Of a DNA stretch of 59,688 bases, positions 1,471-16,949 are shown one piece after another. This DNA is from Treponema sp. (GTDB lineage: Bacteria > Spirochaetota > Spirochaetia > Treponematales > Treponemataceae), in the NCBI GenBank assembly GCA_024695625.1, contig JAILHV010000082.1, forward strand, positions 1 through 59,688. Direction: 5' to 3'. Position 1 is the first letter of the stretch. Every line of letters starts with the position of its first letter. The translations under genes and the position numbers were made by a program. Under the pieces are notes generated by a model that was not told the DNA's origin, ran no database searches, and saw nothing but the letters and a program-made list of their open reading frames with translations.

Positions 1471-1740
1471 ATGGATATTGAAGAGCTTAAAAAGGAAATA
1501 AAGAACGTTATTATTTCTTCCCTTGAACTTGAAGACGTTACCGCTGAAGACATAAAGGATGACGAGGCTTTGTTTGGGGAAGGTCTTGGCCTTGATTCAA
1601 TTGATGCGCTTGAACTTGGCGTTGCGCTCAAGAAGCACTTTGGCGTAAAGTTTTCTTCCGAGAATGAGGAAAACAAGAAGCGCTTTGCTTCTATAAACAC
1701 TCTTGCAGAATATATTGCCCAGGAAAAGGACGGACAGTGA
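1471..1740 (+). CDS. apeE: Acyl carrier protein 1 (ApeE-like)
   Basis: An 89-residue acyl carrier protein. The phosphopantetheine attachment site is Ser43 in GLDSIDAL, the hallmark of ACPs, and the acidic helical pattern is typical. It carries intermediates as thioesters. It starts with an ATG preceded by CAGGAG and is the first gene of a long operon whose order (ACP, ACP, membrane protein, ligase, dehydratase, glycosyltransferase) matches aryl polyene gene clusters; the first ACP there is ApeE. Its stop codon overlaps the next start (TGATG). The symbol is given on gene order and family, not on tested function. Confidence 0.85.
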   Translation: MDIEELKKEIKNVIISSLELEDVTAEDIKDDEALFGEGLGLDSIDALELGVALKKHFGVKFSSENEENKKRFASINTLAEYIAQEKDGQ

Positions 1741-1985
1741 TGACAAAGGATGAACTCTACCAGAAGATAAAGTCTATTATGGTGAATGAATTTGAGGTTG
1801 AAGAGGAAAAGGTTCTTCCCGATGCCAAGCTTGTGGACGACATGGACTTGGATTCAATTGACTTTATTGACCTTGTTGTTAAGACCAAGGATTTTATTCC
1901 CGTAAAGATTGACCCGGAGATTTTTAGGACGGTTCGCACTATGCAGGACGTCGTGGACACTTTGTATCCCTACACCCAGCAATAA
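1740..1985 (+). CDS. apeF: Acyl carrier protein 2 (ApeF-like)
   Basis: An 81-residue second acyl carrier protein with the attachment serine at about residue 39 in DLDSIDFID. It is more divergent than the first ACP, with a PVKIDPEIF stretch near its C-terminus. The ATG at 1740 overlaps the stop of the preceding ACP gene; an in-frame GTG one codon earlier is the alternative start. In APE systems two different ACPs occur side by side, one for starter handling and one for chain growth; which does which here cannot be told from sequence. The next gene starts directly after its stop codon. Confidence 0.85.
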   Translation: MTKDELYQKIKSIMVNEFEVEEEKVLPDAKLVDDMDLDSIDFIDLVVKTKDFIPVKIDPEIFRTVRTMQDVVDTLYPYTQQ

Positions 1986-4010
1986 ATGGTTAAGGTAATC
2001 GCGGCTGTTCTTACGGCTCTTTATCCTTTGCTTGTCTTTACCCTTCTGGTGGTGCTTAAGCTGCCGGTAAGGGTTTTGTCGCTTTGCGTTGTTGCACTTT
2101 CTTTTGCGGCTTTTCTTAGCGCGGGGATAAAGGGTAGGGCTTCGGCTTCTGGGACTGCTGCGTCTGGGGCTTCGGTAGCTTCTTCGGCGGGCAGGTCTTT
2201 TTGGCTGCGCTTTAGGCCTTTTTTGGGGGCAAGCCTTTTTTTGGCGGCGGGGATTGCCTGTTTTTTTACCAACCAGGCGGTTTTCCTAAAGCTTTATTCG
2301 GTGGCGGTTACTTCAACATTTCTTTTTGTTTTTGCAAGTTCCCTTGTTTGGGGGCCCAACATAATTTTCCGCTTTGCTACGATGGCGGACAAGTCTATTC
2401 TGAATTCGGCAAAGGAAAAAAGTGTTGAGCGTTATTGCCGCAAGGTTTGCATTGCGTGGTGCCTGTTTTTTATCCTGAACGCAGGCATTTCCGCTTTTAC
2501 CGCGCTAAAATGCAGCGATGCGGTTTGGTCTTTGTACAATGGCGGCATTTCGTATGCCCTTATGGGGCTTATGTTTGCTGTTGAATATATTATCAGGATT
2601 CAGGTGAATAAAAAAATGCCCGGCGAATATTCAATCACAAAGTTTAAGAACGATTCCCGCAAGGATGACTATGTCCTTTGCTATGAAAATACTTGGTCTT
2701 CCAAAAAGTATAAGACTTGGCTGGACTTTCTTACTGCAAGTGCAAAGGTTCGCGCTTTTCTTTTGGACAGTTCCCGCTCGGCCTGCAAAGAGTGGATCTT
2801 GCACTGCGAGGACTACTGGTATTTTTTATGCACATTTACGGCTCTTTTGCAGTGCGGAAAAAAGGTTTTGCTTACCCAGAACATTAGCGGCAGTTTTATA
2901 AAAGAAATAAAGGCACCCGGAGTTGAATTCTTGACCGACCAGAATGTTGATGGGGCTTTTAGCATAAGCAATATAATAGAAGATTCTTTGCTTCCTTCTG
3001 AAAAAGAAATAAGGACTTCCCCTGCCATTGATGCGGATAAGACGGAAATCTTTATGTACACCTCGGGCAGCACAGGAAAACCCAAGGCCGTTGTTCAGCG
3101 CATGACTGAATTTGAGCTTGACAATAAATTCATCATCTCCAAGTGGGGGGATGATTTTTGTTCCCGCAGGCTTGTTACCACTGTTAGCCAGCACCACATT
3201 TACGGCTTTTTGTTTGGCATTTCTTTGCCTTTTACACTGGGCACTCCCTTCCGCAGAAAGAGAATTGAGTACCCGGAAGAATTTGAAAGTTTGGACGATG
3301 GCCCCTACATGATTATTGCAACCCCGGCTTTTTTAAAGCGCACCGTAGAAATAGAGGGCAAGCTTCCCACCAAAGACTGCTTTATCTTTACAAGTGGCGG
3401 CGTACTTACCCCCGACGTTGCAGAGCAGACGGACAAGGTCTTTGGCTTTTGGCCACTTGAAGTTTACGGTTCAACGGAGACTAGCGGTATAGCATACAGG
3501 CAGAGCAAGAATGGCCTTGAATGGACTCCCTTTGACAACGCAAAAATTTGGAAGGGGGACGACGGGTGTCTCCGCATAATTTCCCCCTACATCAAGAACC
3601 CGGAAGGCTTTGCTACGGCAGACCTGGTGGACATTCTGGATGACGGACGCTTTTTGCTTAAGGGTAGGGCTGATTCCATAGTTAAAATAGAAGAAAAACG
3701 CATTTCCATGACCGAAGTCGAAAACCGTATTTTGCAGACCGGCTTTGTCCGCGACGTAAAGGTTATTGCCCTTGAAGACCGCCGCCAGTACCTTGCAGCC
3801 GCAATTGAATTCAATGAGGAAGGAAAGAAAAAGTTTGGCGGGGTAAAAAAGCTTGAAGTTAACAAATTCTTCCACGACTTTTTGATGCAGTATTTTGAGA
3901 ACGTGGTTATTCCAAAGAAATGGCGTTTTGTAGAAAAGCTTCCCTGCGATGTTCAGGGAAAAAAACACAAGGAAGACATTGCTCTCCTTTTTGAAAAGGC
4001 GGAAGACTAG
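1986..4010 (+). CDS. COG4648 membrane domain fused to AMP-dependent acyl ligase (ApeG-ApeH type)
   Basis: A 674-residue fusion. Residues about 1-205 form a polytopic membrane domain with the COG4648 signature (WGPNIIFR, AWCLFFILNAG, SDAVWSLYNGGISYALMG). Residues about 215-674 are an ANL-superfamily adenylating enzyme: A3 loop TSGSTGKPK near 357, A5 YGSTETSG near 492, A8 GRADSIVKIEEK near 559, and the catalytic C-terminal lysine region GKKHK near 657. In proteobacterial aryl polyene clusters these are two separate proteins; here they are one chain, so starter acid activation and ACP loading would happen at the inner membrane. The starter acid (classically a hydroxycinnamate or hydroxybenzoate) is not known. 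Confidence 0.85.
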   Translation: MVKVIAAVLTALYPLLVFTLLVVLKLPVRVLSLCVVALSFAAFLSAGIKGRASASGTAASGASVASSAGRSFWLRFRPFLGASLFLAAGIACFFTNQAVFLKLYSVAVTSTFLFVFASSLVWGPNIIFRFATMADKSILNSAKEKSVERYCRKVCIAWCLFFILNAGISAFTALKCSDAVWSLYNGGISYALMGLMFAVEYIIRIQVNKKMPGEYSITKFKNDSRKDDYVLCYENTWSSKKYKTWLDFLTASAKVRAFLLDSSRSACKEWILHCEDYWYFLCTFTALLQCGKKVLLTQNISGSFIKEIKAPGVEFLTDQNVDGAFSISNIIEDSLLPSEKEIRTSPAIDADKTEIFMYTSGSTGKPKAVVQRMTEFELDNKFIISKWGDDFCSRRLVTTVSQHHIYGFLFGISLPFTLGTPFRRKRIEYPEEFESLDDGPYMIIATPAFLKRTVEIEGKLPTKDCFIFTSGGVLTPDVAEQTDKVFGFWPLEVYGSTETSGIAYRQSKNGLEWTPFDNAKIWKGDDGCLRIISPYIKNPEGFATADLVDILDDGRFLLKGRADSIVKIEEKRISMTEVENRILQTGFVRDVKVIALEDRRQYLAAAIEFNEEGKKKFGGVKKLEVNKFFHDFLMQYFENVVIPKKWRFVEKLPCDVQGKKHKEDIALLFEKAED

Positions 4011-4013
4011 GCC

Positions 4014-4391
4014 ATGTGCTCTAATTTGCATTCGATTCAGAATGAAAGAATAGTTTCCCAAAGCTCGGATGACCAGGCTAAGAAAAAAAGCGTCTGCCTG
4101 GAAGTTTTTATTTCTCCTGAATCGGATTTTTTTGACGGTCACTTTCCTGCCTTTAAGCTTTTTCCGGCTGTTGCGCAGATTTATCTTGCTGACCGTTTTG
4201 CAAAGAAATACCTTGGTCTGGAAGGCTTTGCCAAGGAAATAAAGCGGGTAAAGTTTCCGTCTCCTCTTTTGCCGGGGGCTACCCTTCTTTTGAGCCTTGA
4301 GCAAGACCTGCTTAACGGAACGCTTTCGTTTTGCCTTTGCGATTCTGTTCAAAAGGATAAAGTCTATTCCAGCGGGACGGCGGTTTTATGA
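4014..4391 (+). CDS. apeI: Hotdog-fold 3-hydroxyacyl-ACP dehydratase (ApeI-like)
   Basis: A 125-residue hotdog protein with the FabA/FabZ-type active-site motif FDGHFP at residues about 39-44, followed by the expected central-helix region and the second half ending LPGATLLLSLE. In APE systems this dehydratase works with a partner dehydratase (ApeP), which is present at 14446. It would remove water from 3-hydroxyacyl-ACP without a following enoyl reduction, so double bonds stay conjugated. It overlaps the next gene by 4 nt (ATGA). Confidence 0.75.
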   Translation: MCSNLHSIQNERIVSQSSDDQAKKKSVCLEVFISPESDFFDGHFPAFKLFPAVAQIYLADRFAKKYLGLEGFAKEIKRVKFPSPLLPGATLLLSLEQDLLNGTLSFCLCDSVQKDKVYSSGTAVL

Positions 4392-5140
4392 GTGGTGAAT
4401 TCAAGCCCTGCTTTGTAATACCTGTCTACAACCACGGGGCAGCCCTTGCTTCTGTTGTTCAAAACCTATGTTACTGCAAAATCCCTATGGTTTTGGTGGA
4501 CGACGGAAATGATTCTAAGAACAGGGAACTTATTCTTTCTGCTTCCAAGCTTTCGCCACTTTGCATTCTTCTTCCTCTTAAAAAAAACAGTGGCAAGGGT
4601 AAGGCATTTTTTGCCGGTGTAGAAAAAGCCCTGTCCCTTGGCTTTACCCATGTTTTCCAGATAGACGCAGACGGTCAGCACGACGCATCACGTTGCGCTT
4701 TCTTTTTAAAAGAGGCAGAATCTAATCCGGAAAAAATAATATGCGGCTACCCGGAATATGACGAGAGCGTTCCCCTTAAGCGGAAAAACGGAAGGGAAAT
4801 TTCCAACAGATGGGCCCGCTTTGTAACTTGGGATTCTTCTATTAAAGACGTTCTTTGTGGCTACAGGGTTTATCCGTCAAAGGCACTGCAAAAGCTAATA
4901 AAATGCCATGCCTACATCAACGCCCGCATGGGTTTTGACACAGACATTCTTGTTCACCTTTCATGGGCTGGCTTTAAGATTTTGAACTACGGCGTAAGGG
5001 TCACTTATCCCCAGGACGGCATTTCAAACTTCCGCATGGTGCGCGACAACATTGCAATTTCTTTAACCTACACACGTCTTTGCATAGGCATGATTGTCCG
5101 CATTCCAAAACTTTTGCTGCGGAGGATTTTCCGTGGCTAA
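4388..5140 (+). CDS. Family 2 glycosyltransferase of the polyene operon
   Basis: A 250-residue GT-A fold glycosyltransferase. It begins with the classic IPVYNHG sugar-nucleotide entry motif, has LVDDGND near residue 38, and a metal-binding DADGQHD at about 92-98. The closest style is dolichyl-phosphate mannosyltransferase-like GT2 enzymes, but without C-terminal membrane helices. In related APE clusters a glycosyltransferase domain is joined to an acyltransferase; here they are separate, overlapping genes. It probably puts a sugar on the membrane-anchored product or its head group; donor and acceptor are not known. Confidence 0.8.
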   Translation: MSGEFKPCFVIPVYNHGAALASVVQNLCYCKIPMVLVDDGNDSKNRELILSASKLSPLCILLPLKKNSGKGKAFFAGVEKALSLGFTHVFQIDADGQHDASRCAFFLKEAESNPEKIICGYPEYDESVPLKRKNGREISNRWARFVTWDSSIKDVLCGYRVYPSKALQKLIKCHAYINARMGFDTDILVHLSWAGFKILNYGVRVTYPQDGISNFRMVRDNIAISLTYTRLCIGMIVRIPKLLLRRIFRG

Positions 5141-6092
5141 GTCCAAAAATGGCGGTGGCGCTTGGTATGAGCAAAAAGAAACTGCCTCTTCCGACACACC
5201 TCTAAAACTGACGCTTTTTCTTGTCCGCATTCTTCCCCACTGGCTTTTGGCACTGCTAGCTTTTCCAGTCTCTTTTTTTTACTGGATTTCTTGTCCTAAA
5301 GCCAGGGCCTCTGCATCACTTTTTCAAAAACAGCTTTGCACTTTTGCCAAGAAGAAAGTTCGCGTGAATACTTATGCCCAGGTATATTCCTTTGCACTCT
5401 GCCTTGTAGAAAAATTTGAAGGCTGGTGCGGGAAGAAAAAATTCAGCAGTATAATTTATTCCGATGACGATTCAGCAGAGCTAAAGAATATCCTTGCCCA
5501 AAAAAAAGGCGCGGTTCTTATAGGAAGCCATCTTGGAAATTCTGAGCTTTTGCGTAGCTTTGCGTCTTTTGGAGAGACGGGAGTGCCAATCCGTGTTGGT
5601 GTTACCGCAGTTGCAGACATGAAGACCACCGCAAAGTTCAACAAGGCAATTGCTGCCCTAAACCTTAGCGCAGACATGGAAGTTCTTCCTACGGAGCAGA
5701 TTGGGGCTGGCACGATTGAATACCTTCAGCAGAAAGTTGATTCTGGCGGACTTGTGGTTCTTATGGGAGACAGGGTTTCATCTTCTGTTCCGGGGCGGTC
5801 ACTAAAGCAGGAATTCCTTGGCAAAGAGGCGGCCTTTCCTTACGGCACTTTTCTAATGGCATCGATGATTGAAGCACCAGTATATTATTTCTTTGCTTTG
5901 CGGCCAAAGGACATTACATTTACTTCAAAATATGATATGCTTGTAAAAAAGAGCAGGGTTCAATTCCTTCCTGGAAGAAAAAACAGGGATTTGAATTTGC
6001 AGAATTTTTCTTTTGAATATGCGCAGGTTTTGCAGGGGTATTGCATGGAGCATCCTTTCCAGTGGTACAACTTTTTTGACTTCTGGGCATAG
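5133..6092 (+). CDS. LpxL/HtrB-type lysophospholipid acyltransferase
   Basis: A 319-residue protein of the bacterial lipid A acyltransferase family (LpxL/HtrB-like). It has an N-terminal membrane segment (about residues 26-50) and the core pattern GSHLGNSELLRS followed by LMGDR. The start is taken as the GTG at 5133, which has a GGAGG nine nt upstream and overlaps the glycosyltransferase stop by 8 nt. It likely transfers an acyl chain, possibly the polyene itself, to the lipid anchor. It ends about 65 nt before a new promoter and the thioesterase gene. Confidence 0.75.
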   Translation: MAKSKNGGGAWYEQKETASSDTPLKLTLFLVRILPHWLLALLAFPVSFFYWISCPKARASASLFQKQLCTFAKKKVRVNTYAQVYSFALCLVEKFEGWCGKKKFSSIIYSDDDSAELKNILAQKKGAVLIGSHLGNSELLRSFASFGETGVPIRVGVTAVADMKTTAKFNKAIAALNLSADMEVLPTEQIGAGTIEYLQQKVDSGGLVVLMGDRVSSSVPGRSLKQEFLGKEAAFPYGTFLMASMIEAPVYYFFALRPKDITFTSKYDMLVKKSRVQFLPGRKNRDLNLQNFSFEYAQVLQGYCMEHPFQWYNFFDFWA

Positions 6093-6120
6093 AAGCCGGC
6101 AGTCAACTTCAAAAAAAAGA

Positions 6121-6149
6121 ATGACTTTTTGCGCTTTATCGCATATAAT
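6121..6149 (+). promoter_or_regulatory. Promoter for the thioesterase and channel module
   Basis: ATGACT (6121-6126), 17-nt spacer, perfect TATAAT (6144-6149). The -10 ends 8 nt before the ATG at 6158, and no Shine-Dalgarno is present, so the message should be leaderless. This gives the thioesterase and the channel genes their own promoter inside the operon. Confidence 0.6.
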
Positions 6150-6157
6150 GTATTTGT

Positions 6158-6589
6158 ATGAAAAAAAATATTTCTGAAGAGATTGTTTTTAATGTTGAAT
6201 TTTATGATGTTGACTCAATGCGGATCGTCTGGCACGGAAATTACGTAAAATACATGGAGGCGTCACGCTGCGCCCTTCTTAACAAAATAGGATACAACTA
6301 CAACGACATGGAGGCTTCTGGGGTGGCATTTCCCCTTGTGGACATTCATTTTAAATACGTACGCTCACTCCGCTTTATGGACAGGGTAAGGGCAGTTGCA
6401 AGGCTTGTTGAGTGGGAAAACTGCATCAAGATAAAGTATGAATTTTACAATGCGGAGTCCGGGGAGCTTACCACCAAGGCGGAAAGCACCCAGATGGGAG
6501 TGGACATCGCAAGCGGGGAGACTATGTTTGTTTGCCCGGAAATCTTTGTAAAGAAAGTGGAATCGATGCTGAATGAAAAAACAGACTAG
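6158..6589 (+). CDS. 4HBT-family acyl-ACP/CoA thioesterase (ApeK-like)
   Basis: A 143-residue single hotdog thioesterase. The 4-hydroxybenzoyl-CoA thioesterase pattern is clear near the N-terminus: DVDSMRIVWHGNYVKYMEASR-like sequence around residues 17-37, containing the active-site aspartate region and HGNY. A thioesterase of this class is a standard part of APE clusters and would release or edit acyl intermediates. It overlaps the first channel gene by 17 nt, so the channel module is translationally tied to it. Confidence 0.8.
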   Translation: MKKNISEEIVFNVEFYDVDSMRIVWHGNYVKYMEASRCALLNKIGYNYNDMEASGVAFPLVDIHFKYVRSLRFMDRVRAVARLVEWENCIKIKYEFYNAESGELTTKAESTQMGVDIASGETMFVCPEIFVKKVESMLNEKTD

Positions 6590-7709
6590 TAAAAGCCAGC
6601 CGTATTTTTTGCGCAGGATAAAACGCACTCTAAAGAATCCCTTCCTCTACGTGTTTCTTTTTATAGGGTTTGTAATATGTGCGGCAACCTATGTCGTCTA
6701 TAAGACGGAGACAAAGACCGACTCGGGCATTACGGGAATGTTCGATGCAGTCTGGCACACCATCGTTGCAGTTGTTGCAGCCTACTATGACTTTTACGTA
6801 AAGTCAGTTCCCGGAAGATTTGCCTCGCTCCTGCTCCTGCTATTGGGCATGGCGGTATGGGCAGTGATAATCGGTAAGATAACTTCTGTCATAATGAACA
6901 TCCAGAACAAAAACAACAGGGGGTTAAAAAAAATAAGACCTATGAAAGGACATTTTTTGCTTTGCGGCTGGAGAAGTGGATTTGAAAAACTATTGGAAAA
7001 CGTGCTTTCCTCCAACCCGGACATTACTCCCGACATGATTGTACTGGTGAATTCCGCTCCGAGTGAACAGGTGCGCTCTATACTTGAAGACCTAAGGTTC
7101 AAGGAAATAAAATATGTTTCGGGTGACTTCTCCGATGCGGAAACACTTCGCCGCGCTTCCATAGAAACGGCTGGCCGCGTTCTTGTCATTGCGGACTTTA
7201 CGGCCGGAAGTACATCAATGGAAATCGACTCCCGCACGGTACTTGCGGTTCTTACGATGAAGTCCATAAAGCCTCAGCTTTACATAGCGGCTGAACTGCT
7301 TGACGAAAAGCTGCAGGAGCACCTTCAGATGGCAAAATGCAACGAGATAATACTTACGCAGGCATATGAGCACAGTCTTCTTGCAACTGCTTCCAGCGGA
7401 ATGGGCTATACAAACGTAATAAGGACACTGATTGGAGACGATGATGATTCGGGCATTTTAATCCGTGCGCTTCCTTCCGGTTTTATAGGAAAGCCCTACG
7501 GCGAGCTTGAAAGCTATTACGACAAAAAGAACAGTTCAAAGATTCTTGTAGGACTTCTTTTGAATACGGATGCAAGCAGGACTGCAAAAAAGGATGAGGC
7601 GGAGCAGCCCTTCGTAAAATACAACGAGCCGGTGCTTACCCCTCCATCTGATTTTGTCATTCCAAAGTCAAGCAAGGTAATACTCATCGCGGGAAATGAG
7701 GGGGCTTGA
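6573..7709 (+). CDS. RCK/TrkA-N ion-channel protein 1 with non-canonical pore loop
   Basis: A 378-residue protein with two transmembrane helices (about 24-43 and 83-104) around a re-entrant pore segment, then a cytoplasmic RCK (TrkA-N, Rossmann) domain beginning near 126 with LLCGWRSGFEKLL. The CGWR.GF pattern and long RCK part resemble CASTOR/POLLUX-type channel proteins. The potassium selectivity signature TVGYG is absent; residues 66-75 read AVVAAYYDFY. The extracytoplasmic KTETKTDSGI stretch precedes the pore. Its neighbour downstream is a colinear paralogue with the same residue numbering. Ion specificity cannot be deduced. Its position inside a polyene lipid operon is unexpected. Confidence 0.8.
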   Translation: MKKQTSKSQPYFLRRIKRTLKNPFLYVFLFIGFVICAATYVVYKTETKTDSGITGMFDAVWHTIVAVVAAYYDFYVKSVPGRFASLLLLLLGMAVWAVIIGKITSVIMNIQNKNNRGLKKIRPMKGHFLLCGWRSGFEKLLENVLSSNPDITPDMIVLVNSAPSEQVRSILEDLRFKEIKYVSGDFSDAETLRRASIETAGRVLVIADFTAGSTSMEIDSRTVLAVLTMKSIKPQLYIAAELLDEKLQEHLQMAKCNEIILTQAYEHSLLATASSGMGYTNVIRTLIGDDDDSGILIRALPSGFIGKPYGELESYYDKKNSSKILVGLLLNTDASRTAKKDEAEQPFVKYNEPVLTPPSDFVIPKSSKVILIAGNEGA

Positions 7710-7716
7710 GCGGCAA

Positions 7717-8931
7717 ATGAAAAAAAAGGATAACGGCAGGCGAAAGCGGCTATTGCATGTTCTGAGGATAGTTGCCAAAAGCCCTGCGACATACATTTAC
7801 CTTGCGATTATGGTTCTTATAATTTCCATGACCGTAATTGTGTTCAACGTTGAGACAAAAACAGAAAGTGGAATCGAGACAAGGTTTGACTCCTTCTACT
7901 TTATGTGCGTTGCGGTTTTTGCAGGCTACTTTGAATATGTGTGTGAATCTCTGCCGGGAAGGGCAGCGGCCATCACGCTCTTGATAACGGGAACGTTTTT
8001 TTTCAGCTACATACGCGGTAAGGTTACTGCGGTGTTTGTGGACATTCAGGAAAAGAAGGATAAAGGTTTGAAAAGTTTAAAATCGATTGGCGGACATTTT
8101 ATAGTTTGCGGCTGGCGGCCGGGCTTTGAAAAAATCATAGAGACGGTTCTGCGCTCCAACCCCGACATTTCAACTGACTTGCTGGTACTTGTAAACGAGG
8201 CTGTTGAGCAGACATCCCAGCTCTTGACTCTTCCCCGCTACAAGGAAGTTCATTTTGTCTCCGGGGATTTTACTGATGAATCCACCTTGAACAGGGCAAG
8301 CATAAAGACTGCGGACCGGGTACTCGTCATTTCCGACCGCTCAAAAAATTATTCCGAACTTGAGGTTGACTCCCGCACGGTACTTGCTCTGCTTACCATA
8401 AGAAGCATGAACCAGGAAGTCTATGCGGTGGCTGAACTCTACAGCTCAAAATTCCAGCAGCACCTTAAGATGGCCCACTGCGACGAGATAATCCTGACCC
8501 AGGACTATGAGCAGAGCCTTCTTGCAACTGCTTCCGGCGGACAGGGGTACAGCAACGTAATCAGCACTCTTATAAGTGATGATGCTGATTCTGGAATTCT
8601 GATTGGCAATGTGCCCAAGGAATTCATTGGGAAGACTTACGGTGAGTTAAAGGCCTTTGAGCTTTCAAAGAGGTCGCAGAAGGGGGTTCTGGTCGGGCTG
8701 CTCCTGAATTCTGGAAACTTTCAGCAGCGCAGGAAGGAAGCCCTCCGCGAGGCGCAGAAAAATCCTGACATAAACAAGATAATCGACAACCTTCAGAAGG
8801 TAAAGACTCTCAAGAGCAACGACCCTCTCTTTGCCCCAAAAAGCGACTTTGTCATTCCACGGAATTCCAAGGCCATATTCGTCAGGGGAAAGGCCATAAA
8901 GGCCATAAAGACTGTAAAGGCAGGTAAATAA
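7717..8931 (+). CDS. RCK/TrkA-N ion-channel protein 2 with non-canonical pore loop
   Basis: A 404-residue paralogue of the preceding protein. TM1 (about 24-43), pore loop, TM2 (about 83-104) and RCK domain (CGWRPGFEKI near 131) align residue for residue with protein 1, including VETKTESGI before the pore and LPGR after it. The pore loop reads VAVFAGYFEY, again lacking TVGYG but keeping a G-Y pair. An in-frame ATG at 7696 overlaps the previous stop; 7717 is chosen because it gives an N-terminus matching protein 1. A heteromeric channel of the two gene products is a fair inference. A short C-terminal extension holds a lysine-rich stretch. Confidence 0.8.
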   Translation: MKKKDNGRRKRLLHVLRIVAKSPATYIYLAIMVLIISMTVIVFNVETKTESGIETRFDSFYFMCVAVFAGYFEYVCESLPGRAAAITLLITGTFFFSYIRGKVTAVFVDIQEKKDKGLKSLKSIGGHFIVCGWRPGFEKIIETVLRSNPDISTDLLVLVNEAVEQTSQLLTLPRYKEVHFVSGDFTDESTLNRASIKTADRVLVISDRSKNYSELEVDSRTVLALLTIRSMNQEVYAVAELYSSKFQQHLKMAHCDEIILTQDYEQSLLATASGGQGYSNVISTLISDDADSGILIGNVPKEFIGKTYGELKAFELSKRSQKGVLVGLLLNSGNFQQRRKEALREAQKNPDINKIIDNLQKVKTLKSNDPLFAPKSDFVIPRNSKAIFVRGKAIKAIKTVKAGK

Positions 8932-8932
8932 T

Positions 8933-9457
8933 ATGGAAGAAAAATACATGAACGACATTCTGCCAAAACTTTCCAAGATTCAGCTCTTTTCAGGCTTTAA
9001 TCCTGATGTGGAGGAAGACAGGAAAATCCTCATGCAGATTTATGAAAATATTTCCCTCAAGAAATTCAAGAAGGGGAATGTGATTATAAAAGAGGGAGAA
9101 GAAGGTGATGATTTTTTCATACTGAATTCCGGCTCGGTTCATATTTCCCGCAATACGCCGGACGGAGATCCTATTGCCCTGGCTGACCTTGATGATTCCA
9201 TGAACATTTTCTTTGGTGAGACAGCCCTTATAAGCAACGATGTTAGGAGCGCGACTGTTACCGCCCTTACAGACTGCACGCTGTTTGTTTTTTCCAGCAA
9301 GAAGTTCCACGCGCTTTGCAAGAAGGTTCCGGTTCTTGGCTACAGGGTTTTGCTGGTGCTTGCCAGGCGCATGGCAACTACGATACGCAACACCAACCGA
9401 GACAAGGCTATGCTTTACCAGGCCCTCTTTAACGAGATTGCCGGCAGCGAAAGATAG
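8933..9457 (+). CDS. Cyclic nucleotide-binding domain protein
   Basis: A 174-residue protein consisting mainly of one cNMP-binding (CAP_ED) domain. Residues 44-63 give the FKKGNVIIKEGEEGD entry strand, and the phosphate-binding cassette reads FFGETALISNDVRSATV with the key Glu96 and Arg105 that bind ribose and cyclic phosphate. No helix-turn-helix follows, so it is not a CRP-type activator. It starts 2 nt after the channel stop. A separate soluble cNMP sensor next to two RCK channel subunits suggests a regulatory subunit. An adenylate cyclase lies at 37283 in the same window. Confidence 0.85.
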   Translation: MEEKYMNDILPKLSKIQLFSGFNPDVEEDRKILMQIYENISLKKFKKGNVIIKEGEEGDDFFILNSGSVHISRNTPDGDPIALADLDDSMNIFFGETALISNDVRSATVTALTDCTLFVFSSKKFHALCKKVPVLGYRVLLVLARRMATTIRNTNRDKAMLYQALFNEIAGSER

Positions 9458-9513
9458 GCTTGTTTTCCTTGGAGACTTGCAGGCATCTTTCTTAAAAAAA
9501 GTAAAAAATAATA

Positions 9514-9542
9514 TTGAAATTTGTAACAAATTGTTATATCCT
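9514..9542 (+). promoter_or_regulatory. Promoter before the LolA-like gene
   Basis: TTGAAA (9514-9519), 17-nt spacer, TATCCT (9537-9542). The spacer holds an inverted repeat, GTAACA-AAT-TGTTAT, that could be an operator; a similar GTAAC palindrome overlaps the trpE transcription start. Confidence 0.5.
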
Positions 9543-9566
9543 TTGTTTTACTTACGGAAGGATTCT

Positions 9567-10208
9567 ATGAAAAAATATTTGTTCGGTCTAGTTTTGATAT
9601 TATTTTTATGTGCGGGCGTAAATTGCTTTGCAAAAGGTATGTCTGTGAATGACGTGCTAAAAAATCTTACCGGCCATGCGAACACCGTAGGGGAATTTTT
9701 ACAGGAAAAGAGCATTGTTGTAAACGGAAACAGGCGTGTACTCAAGTCATCAGGGACTTTTATAATTTCAAACCAGGGCATAGTCTGGAATACGCTTAAG
9801 CCTGTTCGCTCAGTTTCTACGATTACGGACGGACAGATAATCCTTGCTAATTCTGACGGCAGAAGGTCCGTGCTGGATATTCCTGCCAACAATGACTTTT
9901 CAAGTTTTTCAGTTTCTTTTTCTTCTATTTTTAAGGGCAACATGGAAAACCTGAATGAGAATTTTAGCGTCAGCTATAAGGAGAATCCTTCCGGGGAATG
10001 GATTATTTATCTGCTTCCCAAAAAGGAAAACCTTGCTTCCTTCATGAAGAAAATAGAGCTTGTGGGAGTTAACCTGAACGGCGACTCTAGGCTGGACAGC
10101 GTAACTCTTTTTCAGCAGAATGGGGAAGACATAAAATACACACTTACAAAGCAGCAGGTAAAAGAGATTCTTTCTGATGAAGAAAAATATTATTTTGAGG
10201 CAAAATAA
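9567..10208 (+). CDS. LolA-like periplasmic lipoprotein/lipid carrier (ApeM type)
   Basis: A 213-residue secreted protein. A signal peptide spans residues 1-22 (cleavage after CFA). The mature part has the LolA layout: an N-terminal segment that ends SGTFIISNQGIVWNTLKPV and a set of alternating strands. In aryl polyene operons a LolA-like protein sits next to an MMPL exporter and is thought to carry the lipid product across the periplasm. The start is fixed by GGAAGGA before the ATG at 9567. Its last 32 nt overlap the exporter gene. Confidence 0.75.
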   Translation: MKKYLFGLVLILFLCAGVNCFAKGMSVNDVLKNLTGHANTVGEFLQEKSIVVNGNRRVLKSSGTFIISNQGIVWNTLKPVRSVSTITDGQIILANSDGRRSVLDIPANNDFSSFSVSFSSIFKGNMENLNENFSVSYKENPSGEWIIYLLPKKENLASFMKKIELVGVNLNGDSRLDSVTLFQQNGEDIKYTLTKQQVKEILSDEEKYYFEAK

Positions 10209-12528
10209 ATTTTTTGTTTGTCTTTGGGGCTTTTTTCACGCAGTTGTTTTTATAGGATTTTTAGCTTCTGTTTTTTTTGGCAAGGGGCTGAATGTAGAGT
10301 CTAATCTTTTTTCCATGATGCCTTCATCCCTTTCTGCAAAAGAAATTCAGGCTGCGGATTCCATATTGTCTGAACGGACTGGGAACAATTTTTTTATTTT
10401 TGCAGGCAACGCTGAATTTTCCAAGGCAAAGGATGCTGCACTTAAGGCTTTTGAAAAACTTTCCGGCCACGATGAATTTTCCTTTCTTGAAGTGAACGCT
10501 TCATCTTTTTCTTCTGAAGAAATAACTTCTTTTGTTCACAGCCGGCGCTTTAATCTCTTGCCAAAAGCTACTGTGGATGAAATAAAATCTTCTGATAACG
10601 CGGCATCTTCTTTTGGTGAAGAGGCTCTTGCCAAAATTTACGGTGCCTTTAATCTTGCTCCGCTTGAAAATATGGAAAGCGATCCCTTTATGCTTGACGA
10701 CATTATTCTGCGCGGCTACCTTTCGCTTCTTTCTTCTTCCGAATCCTTGCTTTCTCCAAAAGAGGGTGTGCTTGCCGCAGAGCTGGACGGTCTTTGGTAC
10801 GTGGCCATTCGGGGTGGAATGAGCAAAAAGGGGGCTTCTCTTGGCGGCGGCAAAAACGGAGTGGCTCTTGTTTACAAGGAATGTCTTCCTTTGGAAAAGG
10901 ACGGTTGCCGTTTTGTTTTTTCCGGCACTCCTTTTCACAGCTACAAAAGTTCACTTTCTGCTTCCAAGGAAATTTCTGTAATCGGCATTCTTAGCATGAT
11001 TGCGGTTGTGCTTATTCTGTTTTTTGTGTTCAAAAGTTTTTTGCCCATAGCACTTTCTGTTTTTGCGGTGGCCCTTTCCTGTGCGGCCGCTTTTTCTGCA
11101 ACGCACCTTTTACTGGGAAAAGTTCATCTTACGGCACTTGTCTTTGGCACGTCTCTGATTGGTTCCTGCATTGACTACAGCCTGCATTTTTTTATCCACT
11201 GGCGGGCAGACCTGTCTTTGCAAAACGGTTCAGAGATAAGAAGGAAAATCTTTACGGGACTTTTGCTTTCACTTGCAAGCACGGAAATATGCTACCTTCT
11301 TTTGTTCTTTGCCCCATTTGAACTTTTGCGCCAGGTTGCAGTTTTTTCTTTTGCGGGTATAATGAGTTCCTTCCTTACATCTGTCTGCATTTACCCCTGT
11401 CTTAGCCTGCCTAAAAAGCGTTTGCCTCTTTCAATTCCAAAATTCAATTTGAATAAAAGATACCGCTATTTGATTTTGCTGGCATTCTTTGCATTTTCTT
11501 TGCTGGCACTTTTTGTACACAGAAAGGATGTTCGCATAAGAAACGATATTTCTTCTCTCTACAAAATGGAGGGAAGGTTAAAGGAAGACACAATTCTTAG
11601 CGCAAGGTTAACTGGCCAGACATCTCCTGCTTGGTTTTTGGTAAGCGGTGACGATGCAGAGTCCGTGCTGCAGACGGAAGAACTTTTGTCTTTGCAGGAA
11701 GGGCAGGGCTTTTCTGGTGGGGTTTGCACATCATTGTTTGCCCCTTCAAAAAAAACTCAGGATGAATCAAGGGCTGCTGTAGAAATCCTTCTTTCTGGTC
11801 TTGAGGGGCAGCTTTCAAATATAGGCTTTGAAGATGAACTTTCACTTAGGGAAAATTCTTTGGCCATAAAAAATGAATTTGCCGTTTCTGCAAACTCTTA
11901 TGTTTTTCCTTCTGACTTACCCACGGCACTTTCTTCTTTAACGGAAAATCTTTGGCTTGGAAAGATTGGCAAAAAATATTATTCAGTCTTTATGCCAAGG
12001 AAGATTCTTAGCAAGGATGAATGCCGCCTGTTTGCAGAAAAAATACCGGGACTCTTTTTTATGAACAAGGCAGAGGACATAAGCGAAGGTCTGGACCAGC
12101 TTTCCAAATTTATTGCAAAGACTTTCCTTTTGGCTTTTGTGCTTATTGCCATTATGCTAAAGTTCTTCTACGGCTTTAGGCAGCTTGCAAAGATTGTGCT
12201 TGTTCCCCTTGCGAGCGTGCTTTCTATTGTGACTGTCTTTGTGCTTTCTTCTACAAGAATCGAATTCTTTTGCATGACGGGGGCAGTTCTTGTCTTTGGT
12301 CTTGGCCTAGACTACATTATCTATATGGCGGAAAGTTCAAAGAGAAAATCCTCTCTGCAAAGTGGGGAAGAAAATCTTGAGCCTTTTGCGGTCTTGCTTT
12401 CTTTTGTTACGACGGCAATTTCTTTTGGCGCGCTTGCCTTTAGCTCCTTTGTGCCTGTCCACGTAATAGGTCTTGCGGTTTTTGCAGGCCTTTGTGCCGC
12501 AGTAGCCACCACCTTCCTGCAAAGCTAG
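10177..12528 (+). CDS. MMPL/RND-family lipid exporter
   Basis: A 783-residue RND-superfamily transporter (COG4258 type). It has the duplicated layout: an N-terminal helix (about 15-35), a periplasmic loop to about 265, a block of five helices (about 266-430), a second periplasmic loop and a second block (about 645-783) with the FGLGLDYIIYM motif carrying the proton-relay-like Asp. The first half has the matching GTSLIGSCIDYSLHF. It likely extrudes the finished polyene lipid from the inner membrane and hands it to the LolA-like protein whose gene overlaps it. The ATG at 10177 lies inside the preceding gene. Confidence 0.85.
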   Translation: MKKNIILRQNKFFVCLWGFFHAVVFIGFLASVFFGKGLNVESNLFSMMPSSLSAKEIQAADSILSERTGNNFFIFAGNAEFSKAKDAALKAFEKLSGHDEFSFLEVNASSFSSEEITSFVHSRRFNLLPKATVDEIKSSDNAASSFGEEALAKIYGAFNLAPLENMESDPFMLDDIILRGYLSLLSSSESLLSPKEGVLAAELDGLWYVAIRGGMSKKGASLGGGKNGVALVYKECLPLEKDGCRFVFSGTPFHSYKSSLSASKEISVIGILSMIAVVLILFFVFKSFLPIALSVFAVALSCAAAFSATHLLLGKVHLTALVFGTSLIGSCIDYSLHFFIHWRADLSLQNGSEIRRKIFTGLLLSLASTEICYLLLFFAPFELLRQVAVFSFAGIMSSFLTSVCIYPCLSLPKKRLPLSIPKFNLNKRYRYLILLAFFAFSLLALFVHRKDVRIRNDISSLYKMEGRLKEDTILSARLTGQTSPAWFLVSGDDAESVLQTEELLSLQEGQGFSGGVCTSLFAPSKKTQDESRAAVEILLSGLEGQLSNIGFEDELSLRENSLAIKNEFAVSANSYVFPSDLPTALSSLTENLWLGKIGKKYYSVFMPRKILSKDECRLFAEKIPGLFFMNKAEDISEGLDQLSKFIAKTFLLAFVLIAIMLKFFYGFRQLAKIVLVPLASVLSIVTVFVLSSTRIEFFCMTGAVLVFGLGLDYIIYMAESSKRKSSLQSGEENLEPFAVLLSFVTTAISFGALAFSSFVPVHVIGLAVFAGLCAAVATTFLQS

Positions 12529-12555
12529 TTGGGTGTCCCGCCCCTTTTGCTGTAT

Positions 12556-12584
12556 TTGACAAAAGACGGCATATTTCTTACAAT
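12556..12584 (+). promoter_or_regulatory. Internal promoter before the DUF3261 lipoprotein gene
   Basis: TTGACA (12556-12561), 17-nt spacer, TACAAT (12579-12584), a near-perfect promoter. The -10 ends 10 nt before the ATG at 12595 and no Shine-Dalgarno is visible, so this message is probably leaderless. It would drive the second half of the operon separately. Confidence 0.65.
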
Positions 12585-12594
12585 TAAAATTCCT

Positions 12595-13230
12595 ATGAAA
12601 CTCTTACCTACACAAAAAAACTTTTTGAACTTTACTCAAAAGACTTTTGCTGCAGCTCTTATTTTTTCTGCGCTTTTGTCATCATTTGCATTTTTTTCAT
12701 GCGTTTCTTCTGCCAAGGCAAAACTCCATCCAGTTTATATTACCGACAAAAAATGTATAGAACTTCTGCCGCCTTCTGCATGCTCCCTTTCCAAAGAGTG
12801 TGCCCAGGAATTTAGCGGTGATTTTGACGGAAAATCTTTTTCGATGATGGCATATCTTAAGCTGGATAAAAAAGAAATTTCTGTCTGCCTTTTGAGCACT
12901 TTTGGCGTGGACATTGGCTTTCTTTCCTACGATGGAAAAAGCGTTAAATTTGAATCCCACTTTTTTCCAGACAGCTTTAGGGCTGAATATATAGTTGCGG
13001 ATTTTCAAAACGCATATTATGACTTTGATGTGCTAAAGGCAAATTACTCTGCAGCAGGGCTTGCCTTTTCGGAAACAAAAACATCCACTTCCATTACGCG
13101 CACAATTCATGACGGTAAGAATTTAATAGAAGAAATAGAAATAAGTCTTAAGAAAAAAAAGATTAGCCGCATCAAGATAAGAAACCACCTTCGTAACTAC
13201 ACATATATTATTACGGAGGTTGAACCTTAA
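12595..13230 (+). CDS. DUF3261-type outer-membrane lipoprotein of the polyene operon
   Basis: A 211-residue predicted lipoprotein. The signal peptide ends FAFFSC with the lipid-modified cysteine at residue 36. The remainder is a compact beta-rich domain of about 170 residues ending in a basic stretch. Small lipoproteins of the DUF3261 family are regular members of APE clusters, between the exporter and the ketosynthase genes, as here; the family call is by position and general resemblance. The start at 12595 is chosen because an upstream TTG at 12529 lies before the internal promoter. The stop codon overlaps the ketosynthase start (TAATG). Confidence 0.65.
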   Translation: MKLLPTQKNFLNFTQKTFAAALIFSALLSSFAFFSCVSSAKAKLHPVYITDKKCIELLPPSACSLSKECAQEFSGDFDGKSFSMMAYLKLDKKEISVCLLSTFGVDIGFLSYDGKSVKFESHFFPDSFRAEYIVADFQNAYYDFDVLKANYSAAGLAFSETKTSTSITRTIHDGKNLIEEIEISLKKKKISRIKIRNHLRNYTYIITEVEP

Positions 13231-14456
13231 TGAAAGCAGAAGCTTTGCAAAAAATTTATTTTTCGGCCCCCGGAGTTTTTTGTTCGGCAGGAAAAAACAT
13301 TGGCGAACTTTGGGCTGGTGTGTGTTCCGCTGATAATTCAGGAATAAAAAAAACAAGGACTCTTTCTGGAAAGGAATTTTTTGCAGCCCGTGTTGAAGAT
13401 GATTCTTTGCCTAAAGTAAAGGCCCGACTTGATATGAAAATAACCAGGCTGGAAGCGGCCGCTCTTTTGCAGATAGAGGACTTTATCTTTGAAGCAAAAG
13501 AAAAATACGGCTCTGACCGCGTAGCAGTCTGCGTGGGTTCTTGCGACAACGGAAGCGAACTTTCTATTGCGGGTCACAAGGCTTTTTTTGAGCAGGGGAA
13601 TTTTCCGCTTTCCTATAGCCTGGAAAACCAGTGTGCGGATTATGTTGCAACTTTTGTAAGCGAAAACTATGAGCTTAAGGGTGCGTCCCTTGCATTCACT
13701 ACGGCATGTGCTTCAAGTGCGGCTGCAATCTCCAAAGCGGCAGAACTTATCCGTTCTGGGCTTGCCGATGCCGTGGTTGCAGGTGGAGTGGACATTGCTT
13801 CTGACACAGTTCTTCTTGGCTTTGATTCACTTGAATCCATCTCTTTGCAGAAGACCAATCCATTCAGCAAAAACAGAAACGGAATAACCTTGGGCGACGG
13901 AGCGGCATTTTTTTTGCTTAGCCGTGACAACCTTTTAAAAAGCGGAGTGCCTGTAATTCTTTCGGGAAGCGGACAAAGTTCGGATGCCTACCACATAACA
14001 TCTCCTGACCCGGAAGGAAATGGGGCTGCGGATGCTATGCAAAAGGCATTGGACGATGCAGCTTTAAAAGCGGAAGACATTGATTACCTTAACCTTCACG
14101 GGACAGGTACCCGCCTTAATGATTCTATGGAAGCAAAGGCTGTAGAAAAAGTTTTTGCAAGCCACAAACTCTTGTGCAGTTCCACAAAGTCGGAGACAGG
14201 ACATACGCTTGGTGCGGCTGGAGCATTGGAAGCTGCTGTGTGCTGGGCTCTTATTCAGGAAAGTGCCAAGGGGTCGGACAAAGTTCCCCTTCAGGCTTGG
14301 GACGGAGAAAGGGACAGTGAACTTCCGGACTTGAATTTTGCAGGCAAGGATTCATCTGTAAAATTCAGGGTAAGGAACTGCATGAGCAATTCCTTTGCAT
14401 TCGGCGGAAGCAATACGGTTTTGATTCTTAGCGCGGAGGATTCTTATGCAGTTTGA
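13230..14456 (+). CDS. apeO: Beta-ketoacyl-ACP synthase (ApeO-like)
   Basis: A 408-residue ketosynthase with a full active site: Cys near residue 160 in TACASS, His near 290 in HGTGT, and His near 327 in GHTLGAAGA. It condenses malonyl-ACP with an acyl-ACP. In characterised APE pathways this KS pairs with a non-catalytic chain-length-factor-like partner (ApeC); a gene for such a partner is found at 52963-53664 in this window, 38 kb away. GGAGG precedes the ATG. It overlaps the dehydratase gene by 11 nt. Confidence 0.85.
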   Translation: MKAEALQKIYFSAPGVFCSAGKNIGELWAGVCSADNSGIKKTRTLSGKEFFAARVEDDSLPKVKARLDMKITRLEAAALLQIEDFIFEAKEKYGSDRVAVCVGSCDNGSELSIAGHKAFFEQGNFPLSYSLENQCADYVATFVSENYELKGASLAFTTACASSAAAISKAAELIRSGLADAVVAGGVDIASDTVLLGFDSLESISLQKTNPFSKNRNGITLGDGAAFFLLSRDNLLKSGVPVILSGSGQSSDAYHITSPDPEGNGAADAMQKALDDAALKAEDIDYLNLHGTGTRLNDSMEAKAVEKVFASHKLLCSSTKSETGHTLGAAGALEAAVCWALIQESAKGSDKVPLQAWDGERDSELPDLNFAGKDSSVKFRVRNCMSNSFAFGGSNTVLILSAEDSYAV

Positions 14457-14940
14457 GCTTCCGGTAGAAAAAGATGAGCTTTTGACTATGGTTCCCCACA
14501 AGGGCAAGATGTTCCTTTTGAACCGTGTGGTTCAGTATGACGTGGAAAAGCTTACGATAACCTTGCAGCTGGACGTTAAGCCGGACAATATTTTTTACGA
14601 TGAAGTGCTTGGCGGAATTCCTTCATGGTGCACATTTGAAATTATGGCACAGGGAGTTGCGGCTCTTTCCTTCATAAAAAAAACAGTGCGCGGAGAAAGT
14701 GAAAAATGCAATCCCGGAGTTGTACTTAGCATCTCTCACTTTAAGACAAGGGTTTCATCCTTTGCAGCAGGAACAACAATCAGTATAAAAGTTTCGGAGG
14801 ATGTTTCTTCCGGAGACATTTCAAAATTCAGCTGTGCAATATTCGGACAGGACAATACTTCGCAGGATGATGCGGATGTGACTACATTCATTACCGTAAT
14901 GGAATCAAAAGATTTGGAACAGAGGCTGGGGCAGGAATGA
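14446..14940 (+). CDS. apeP: Second hotdog dehydratase (ApeP-like)
   Basis: A 164-residue hotdog protein. The N-terminal VPHKGKMFLLNRV and the helix region SWCTFEIMAQGVAALS match the FabA/FabZ-like ApeP family, in which the catalytic His lies in the PHKG segment. It is the presumed partner of the dehydratase at 4014, together forming a heterodimer that dehydrates without isomerisation so that the chain keeps conjugated double bonds. It is translationally coupled to the ketosynthase gene before it. Confidence 0.8.
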   Translation: MQFELPVEKDELLTMVPHKGKMFLLNRVVQYDVEKLTITLQLDVKPDNIFYDEVLGGIPSWCTFEIMAQGVAALSFIKKTVRGESEKCNPGVVLSISHFKTRVSSFAAGTTISIKVSEDVSSGDISKFSCAIFGQDNTSQDDADVTTFITVMESKDLEQRLGQE

Positions 14941-14961
14941 CTAGCCCAAGGAAAAATAAAA

Positions 14962-15693
14962 ATGGAAGATGAAAAGAAAAAAATTCTTGTAACAGGTGCA
15001 AGCGGAGGAATTGGAAGAGCCATTTGCCTTGCCGCTGCAAAAAAAGGATATTATGTAATTGCCCACTACAACCGCGGTAAGGAAAAGGCGGAAGAAACTT
15101 TGCGCTTGATAAAAGATGCCGGTGGAAAAGGGGAGCTTATTCAGTTTGACGTTCTTGACAGGGAAGGCTGCCGCGAAAAGATGAATGCCCTTTTGCTTTC
15201 ACATGGTGCCCTCTGGGGAATCGTTAGCAATGCGGGAATAAACAAAGACCAGACTTTTGCAGGTCTGGAAGGCCAGGACTGGGATTCTGTAGTGCACACA
15301 AGCCTTGACGGTTTTTACAACGTCCTTCAGCCTCTGACCCTTGCCATGTGCCGTAAGAAGAAGGGGCGCATAATTGCAATTTCTTCCGTAAGCGGAATTA
15401 CCGGCAACAGGGGACAGACAAACTACAGTGCTGCAAAGGCGGGGCTGATTGGTGCCTGCAAAGCCCTTGCGGTTGAGCTTGCCAGCAGAAACATTACCGT
15501 TAACGCTGTGGCACCCGGTCTTATTGAGACGGAAATGCTAAAAGATGCACCTGTAGAAACTCTGCTTGCTTCTGTTCCAATGAAGCGAATGGGAAAGCCC
15601 GAGGATGTTGCAAACCTTGTAACCTTCCTTTTGAGCGAAGAAGCGGGATACATTACTCGTCAGGTAATTTCTGTAAACGGCGGTATAATATGA
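14962..15693 (+). CDS. apeQ: 3-oxoacyl-ACP reductase, FabG type (ApeQ-like)
   Basis: A 243-residue short-chain dehydrogenase. The NAD(P)-binding TGASGGIG is at residues 11-18, the NAG motif at about 91, the catalytic serine in ISSVSG, and YSAAK at about 155-159. The C-terminal pattern (GLIETEML, EEAGYITRQVISVNGGI) is typical of FabG. It reduces 3-ketoacyl-ACP to 3-hydroxyacyl-ACP. No enoyl reductase gene is found in the operon, which fits a polyene product. It overlaps the next ketosynthase by 4 nt. Confidence 0.85.
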   Translation: MEDEKKKILVTGASGGIGRAICLAAAKKGYYVIAHYNRGKEKAEETLRLIKDAGGKGELIQFDVLDREGCREKMNALLLSHGALWGIVSNAGINKDQTFAGLEGQDWDSVVHTSLDGFYNVLQPLTLAMCRKKKGRIIAISSVSGITGNRGQTNYSAAKAGLIGACKALAVELASRNITVNAVAPGLIETEMLKDAPVETLLASVPMKRMGKPEDVANLVTFLLSEEAGYITRQVISVNGGII

Positions 15694-16949
15694 ATTTTAC
15701 AAAAGCAAACGGAAAGAGAAGGGTTGTTGTTACAGGCGGAGGAATGCTTACCGCTTTGGGAGACACTTGGGACGAAGCCTATAAGACTTTGCGTTCCGGA
15801 AAAAACTGCATACGCTACATGCCAGACTGGGACCGCTTTGACAAGATGAACACACGCCTTGCCTGTCCCTATACAGGAGAGTTGCCCAAGTACCCAAGAA
15901 AAAAAGTGCGCGGTATGGGTAGGGTTGCCCTTCTTGCCCTTACTGCGACAGAAGCAGCCTTTGAAGATGCAGGCCTTAAGAATGAAGACGGAAGCCTTTT
16001 GGAAGAACTTCACAACGGCAGAACTGGAATTGCATACGGTTCCTGCATGGGAAGCATGGACTCCATGGTGGACATGTTCGGCATGGTGCTTACAAACGAC
16101 TCAAGCAAGATAGATTCCCAGACCTACATAAAGTGTATGCCCCAGACTTGTGCCGCAAACATAAGCGTCTTCTATTCCTTGCGCGGAAGAATAATCACTA
16201 CTAACACAGCATGCACTTCAGGCAGCCAGGCAATCGGATACGCATACGAGGCAATAGAAAACGGCATACAGGACATGATGGTGGCAGGTGGAGCAGAAGA
16301 GCTTGTTCCTCCTGATGCAGCGGCATTTGATGCAATGGGTGCAACTGCATACGACAACGCCCATCCACAGGAAGAGCCAAAGCCTTTTGATGTAAAGCGC
16401 GACGGCCTTGTTATTGGCGAAGGGGCTGGAACCCTGATTCTTGAAGACATGGAGCACGCATACAAGCGCGGTGCAAAGATGTATGCAGAGGTTGCAGGCT
16501 TTGGAACCAACTGCGACGGAACCCACATCACAAGCCCCAATTCGGAGACTATGGCTCAGGCACTTAGGCTTGCACTCGATGACGCCGGAATTGCCCCTGA
16601 AAAAATTGCCTACGTAAATGCCCACGGAACTTCCACTGCCGCAGGAGACGTTGCAGAAAGCATTGCCACTTATTCAGTCTTTAAAAGGGACGTTCCCATT
16701 AGCACTACAAAAAGCTACATTGGCCACACTCTTGGTGCATGCGGATGCGTAGAGGCATGGCTTACCATAAACATGATGAACGAAGGCTACTTCCATCCAA
16801 ACCTTAACCTTACCCAGCTTGACCCAAACTGCGCGCCCCTTGGCTACATAATGGGAAGCGGCCTGGAGCTGCCGGATGCGGAATACGTGATGAGCAACAA
16901 CTTTGCCTTTGGCGGAGTGAATACAAGCCTTGTCTTTAGAAGAATTTAG
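15690..16949 (+). CDS. apeR: Beta-ketoacyl-ACP synthase II-type (ApeR-like)
   Basis: A 419-residue FabF-like ketosynthase with all catalytic residues: Cys near 175 in TACTSGS, His near 312 in HGTST, and His near 346 in GHTLGACG. It is the last gene of the operon and is followed by a strong hairpin at 16973-16992. In APE clusters a second, homodimeric ketosynthase sits in this last position. It differs clearly from the ketosynthase at 13230, so the two are old paralogues, not a recent duplication. Confidence 0.85.
   Translation: MNFTKANGKRRVVVTGGGMLTALGDTWDEAYKTLRSGKNCIRYMPDWDRFDKMNTRLACPYTGELPKYPRKKVRGMGRVALLALTATEAAFEDAGLKNEDGSLLEELHNGRTGIAYGSCMGSMDSMVDMFGMVLTNDSSKIDSQTYIKCMPQTCAANISVFYSLRGRIITTNTACTSGSQAIGYAYEAIENGIQDMMVAGGAEELVPPDAAAFDAMGATAYDNAHPQEEPKPFDVKRDGLVIGEGAGTLILEDMEHAYKRGAKMYAEVAGFGTNCDGTHITSPNSETMAQALRLALDDAGIAPEKIAYVNAHGTSTAAGDVAESIATYSVFKRDVPISTTKSYIGHTLGACGCVEAWLTINMMNEGYFHPNLNLTQLDPNCAPLGYIMGSGLELPDAEYVMSNNFAFGGVNTSLVFRRI

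Follow-up and report, generated by a model that had tools for sequence, protein, structure and literature searches.

What are two RCK channel genes and a gene for a stand-alone cyclic-nucleotide-binding protein doing in the middle of an aryl-polyene-type cluster of a Treponema sp.? We addressed this question in a window of 59,688 nt (contig JAILHV010000082.1), in which the polyene cluster spans about 1471-16949 and the three genes, here called chA, chB and CNBD, lie between its thioesterase and LolA genes. An earlier note on this DNA, made from the sequence alone, took the triplet for a possible envelope-sensing or osmotic system tied to production of a membrane polyene. Our analysis leads to a different reading, which we consider reasonably probable: a split cyclic-nucleotide-gated cation channel conserved across Spirochaetota, for which we infer the complex, the gating, the docking, the permeation and the heteromer.

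The three genes and their products

All three genes are on the forward strand and have the boundaries given in the earlier note: chA at 6573..7709, chB at 7696..8931 and CNBD at 8933..9457. The 17-nt overlap of chA with the thioesterase gene (6158-6589) is also as described there, but the gap between chB and CNBD is 1 nt and not the 2 nt claimed; the CNBD gene has an alternative start at 8948. As annotated, chA and chB appear to overlap by 14 nt. In homologues of chB the first residue corresponds to the Met codon at 7717, which is the probable true start, so that this overlap may instead be a 7-nt gap. Against the window's closest relatives, dN/dS is 0.02-0.08 for all three genes; such strong purifying selection argues that the triplet is not a chance arrangement.

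The chA and chB products are 51% identical, and both match Slo-like_RCK (PF22614) and TrkA_N (PF02254) above the Pfam cut-off, with the RCK domain at the C-terminal end, in agreement with the claim of two RCK channel paralogues; chA forms its own clade beside chB. The two window channels have 378-411 residues and fit a 2TM model, and no 6TM voltage-sensor-like architecture was found. A structural model of chB, of moderate confidence (mean pLDDT 72.5), has helices at residues 30-53, 63-76 and 86-122, that is two transmembrane helices and a P-loop helix, and the top match in a fold search of the PDB was MthK. As the model was built on a 12-row alignment and has a pTM of 0.43, we regard its domain folds as credible and its domain arrangement as not.

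The CNBD product, a putative sensor subunit, matches PF00027 at 6.5e-22, bearing out its description as a stand-alone cNMP-binding protein, and its PDB matches are CNBDs that include those of PKG, MloK1 and SthK. Its phosphate-binding cassette (IFFGETALISNDVRSATV, 9206..9259, forward strand) contains G95, E96 and R105, the full set of ligand residues. Among the partner CNBDs of related channels the cassette G is present in 162/162, the E in 158/162 and the R in 158/162. The four proteins without E and R (FGKAALLGEDFHGSS) come from all four genomes of one sister genus (L156-L159), where the gene pair is retained although no ligand site is evident; this suggests a ligand-independent or changed sensor in that genus and counts against the split-channel reading. 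The genome carrying the window has 14 class III cyclase matches, so that a ligand is likely available. One class III cyclase domain (PF00211) is encoded on the same contig, at 38153-38692 of the window.

A Pycsar-like anti-phage system was considered since PADLOC reports PycTIR and similar effectors as matches of the CNBD protein (E 5e-13). This match covers the CNBD only, the neighbourhood of the pair in the window has neither a TIR domain nor a cyclase, and the distribution of the family is phylum-wide and vertical-looking; we rejected a defence function as extremely improbable.

The polyene cluster as a setting

Reading along the window cluster, the gene order is ACP, ACP, acyl-ACP synthetase, dehydratase, glycosyltransferase, acyltransferase, thioesterase, the triplet, LolA, MMPL, a DUF3261-type gene, KS, DH, KR and KS. 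This is the order of apeE-R in the E. coli aryl polyene cluster apeA-R (PMC8253772), from which the window differs in that the chA-chB-CNBD triplet is added and an apeG-type gene is absent. In E. coli the apeK thioesterase gene is followed directly by apeL LolA, with no channel between them (PMC8253772), and the APE clusters read in other Treponema likewise have an uninterrupted thioesterase-LolA junction, so the earlier statement that the triplet does not belong to known APE clusters stands. The polyene acyl-ACP synthetase has a relative in 134/196 Treponema genomes. We read 20 such synthetase loci and found that wherever the junction survives the thioesterase gene adjoins LolA, except in the window's near relatives. 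Channel genes were thus not a recurrent part of the clusters read, in other Treponema or in E. coli, and the triplet is an addition to the polyene cluster in one small lineage.

Starting from the channel instead, we found the polyene cluster at 5 of 80 named loci (L053-L057), each sharing 88% identity or more with the window. The other 75 lie away from an APE cluster, among unrelated neighbours. The earlier note had named a triplet widespread away from lipid genes as the observation that would speak against its proposal, and for channel-CNBD loci this is what we see. The operon position common to the window and its closest relatives does favour an envelope or osmotic sensor linked to the polyene; against such a sensor stand the 75 loci elsewhere and the channel-free APE clusters of other Treponema. 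Because the triplet is confined to the clusters of the closest relatives and most pairs are found elsewhere, we rejected the functional tie to the polyene, a reading that we regard as very improbable. In the window lineage the triplet would be a neighbour of the polyene genes in their operon and not a working part of it.

Compared with L054, L055 and L057 over window positions 4388-12528, the acyltransferase, thioesterase and MMPL genes around the triplet have dS values of 0.1-0.6, whereas those of chA, chB and CNBD are about 0.9-1.4, and LolA is just 83% identical. The low dS of the flanking polyene genes against the higher dS of the triplet points to a recombination mosaic. At another locus a channel-CNBD pair lies within a few kb of a gene (L127:13943-16327) whose product is related to the polyene MMPL exporter at 43% identity; other polyene genes are absent there.

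Pairing of channel and CNBD genes across Spirochaetota

The feature that recurs is the pairing of channel and CNBD. In nearly all of the first 20 relatives read, a CNBD gene directly follows chB, and across the family it lies directly downstream on the same strand in 163/166 channels, often overlapping or no more than 25 nt away; the 166 are loci and not independent genomes, some genomes being counted twice. The three exceptions are from one genome, in which the CNBD gene is kept on another contig. Outside the window's own family, 25 further families of Spirochaetota have the pair. As a control we took 20 other RCK channels of the phylum, too distant for orthology, and none of them had a CNBD neighbour within the 5-6 kb read. 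Conversely, the partner-type CNBD is missing as well from 16/16 good Treponema genomes that lack the channel: their best CNBD match scores 81 bits and such matches are in proteins of ~400 residues, against at least 226 bits for partner CNBDs of the same genus.

This adjacency, together with the shared presence and absence, is strong evidence for joint function, as distinct from physical contact. With the conserved ligand residues, it upholds the proposal of a conserved unit in which a channel has its putative ligand sensor on a separate soluble protein. No natural channel-CNBD fusion was seen in the loci read, where the genes are separate throughout, and a search of plasmids for fused homologues returned only distant RCK channels, matched over less than the full length. 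Searches of family libraries and of the literature, mostly without subscription papers, found no description of the pair. The parts are of known kinds, and the combination and the filter described below are new as far as the literature searched shows.

Filter, RCK-C insert and a proposed mechanism

A point absent from the earlier note is that neither window channel has a K+ selectivity filter. By alignment with orthologues, TxTTVGYGDxx is replaced by VAVVAAYYDFY in chA (6768..6800, forward strand) and by VAVFAGYFEYV, one residue shorter, in chB (7909..7941, forward strand), so that in place of TxGYG chA has VVAAYYD (in full, the non-canonical filter VVAAYYDF) and chB has FAGYFE. Channel orthologues across the phylum have a TxGYGD-type filter, outside one clade of gut Treponema in which the filter reads A-[GAN]-Y-[FY]-[DE] and, through a deletion, is one residue shorter than TxGYGD. 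The replacement is required once on a tree of 147 channels (branch support 76). In 62 chB-type sequences A76 and Y78 are invariant and the next positions are [FY]79 and [DE]80, and few positions of the membrane part have an entropy as low as those of the filter. This conservation favours a working filter over decay, and the presence of the new filter in both chA and chB indicates that the channel duplicated after the filter change or together with it.

From these sequences the Treponema-clade pore is probably no longer K+-selective but cation-conducting. NirBac channels demonstrate that K+-channel scaffolds can acquire new non-selective filters (PMC4607889); they resemble the Treponema clade in having a replaced non-canonical filter on such a scaffold, and differ in having a Kir cytoplasmic domain where the window channels have an RCK domain, no CNBD partner, and other filter sequences. 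Eukaryotic CNG filters are also without GYG, as in the T-I-G-E of CNGA1 (PMC12375067). A filter without GYG could also be closed, and the Treponema-clade protein might then be non-conducting, its membrane-anchored RCK ring and CNBD serving as a signalling scaffold or receptor. In favour of this, the TxGYG backbone is missing from the filter of this clade, which is also shorter by one residue, and the window proteins, unlike the K-type orthologues, have no Pfam Ion_trans_2 match. Such a pseudo-channel sits poorly with a filter that is conserved and not drifting, and with the finding that orthologues with canonical filters have the same CNBD partner, and we judge it rather unlikely.

Where might the CNBD protein act on the channel? 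The partnered channels have an RCK-C insert, which in chB is 38 residues long (SGNFQQRRKEALREAQKNPDINKIIDNLQKVKTLKSND, 8710..8823, forward strand) and which we propose as a candidate docking element and contact site for the CNBD. It measures 38-41 residues in 163/163 partnered channels and 2-4 in 20 unpartnered RCK channels. Insert and CNBD both mark the same orthologous group, so this match is confounded, except for chA, which is without a CNBD of its own and in which the loop has 21 residues against the 38 of chB (range in chA-type channels 2-28). Among chB-type channels no region varies less than the insert (entropy 0.67 bits), and among chA-type channels none varies more (1.73 bits); judged by these alignments, chA has lost the conserved insert.

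Co-variation between chB and CNBD exceeds that of a random-pairing null, which leaves relatedness in, at a Neff of 79; at this same Neff the couplings of the insert are 0.07-0.095 against 0.098 expected, with no enrichment. A fused model from Treponema bryantii, in which channel and CNBD are in frame and the stop was read through, had a pTM of 0.36 and was uninformative on contact. With neither line supporting contact, the CNBD protein could act on another target, for example a kinase or regulator, the genes being merely co-expressed. We regard this as unlikely in view of the adjacency in 25 further families, the joint absence, the displaced CNBD gene that is still kept in its genome, and the CNBD protein itself, in which Pfam finds no further domain, DNA-binding or otherwise.

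In the mechanism that we propose for a split channel, chB, joined by chA in the window lineage, would assemble into a tetramer like that of MthK, with a 2TM pore and a gating ring of RCK domains. The CNBD protein, made from the reading frame right after chB, would bind cAMP or cGMP from class III cyclases and, with ligand bound, would act in trans on the RCK ring, perhaps via the 38-residue RCK-C insert. The ligand would change the ring and the ring would move the inner helices, as it does in MthK and GsuK (PMC3510474), so that the pore opens or closes. TxGYGD would have been swapped once in the Treponema clade for the shorter A-[GAN]-Y-[FY]-[DE], and after this change the channel would have duplicated, chA giving pore and RCK domain with the insert lost and chB keeping the CNBD contact; a heteromer of chA and chB is plausible. 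We see an even chance for the reading in this specific form, namely a two-protein cNMP-gated cation channel made of an RCK pore and a separate CNBD, in which a single event in Treponema put a shorter A-G-Y-[FY]-[DE] filter of new selectivity in place of the K+ filter, with duplication into the chA/chB heteromer coming after it.

An octameric ring in single-RCK channels requires extra RCK subunits (PMC3510474), and an internal translation start as in MthK is possible in this channel family. A Shine-Dalgarno-like site precedes an RCK-proximal internal Met in 35/84 sequences, compared with 13.6 expected from synonymous shuffles and uncorrected for relatedness. In the window, chB has no RCK-proximal Met and chA no clear Shine-Dalgarno-like site.

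The window channels share their topology and RCK gating domain with MthK and other 2TM single-RCK channels, and differ from the MthK type in the missing TxGYGD filter, the extra RCK-C insert of partnered channels and the CNBD protein partner. CNG/CNBD channels (SthK, MloK1, CNGA1) combine a cNMP-binding domain with a tetrameric cation pore, as proposed here, but in those channels CNBD and 6TM pore part form one polypeptide, whereas the window encodes the CNBD apart from a 2TM-RCK channel that has another filter sequence. In Ktr/Trk systems a regulatory ring protein is supplied in trans; there it is the RCK ring that is separate, with a transporter-type subunit in the membrane, while in the window the separate part is the CNBD. 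If the split-channel reading is true, spirochaetes, which are rich in class III cyclases, would have a phylum-wide cyclic-nucleotide effector, and a channel whose cyclic-nucleotide sensor is a separate protein that could be added or removed. They would also offer a natural before-and-after series of K+ filter rewriting in which the gating apparatus and the partner are unchanged.

The pair also occurs in other arrangements. At L091, L121 and in many Treponema it is followed by genes for a YfjP/RsgA-like GTPase (~328 residues) and a MutS2-like protein (~840 residues), both named by eye from sequence. At L154 and L155, where the filters are of the canonical K+ type, the whole pair is tandemly duplicated in the order channel-CNBD-channel-CNBD.
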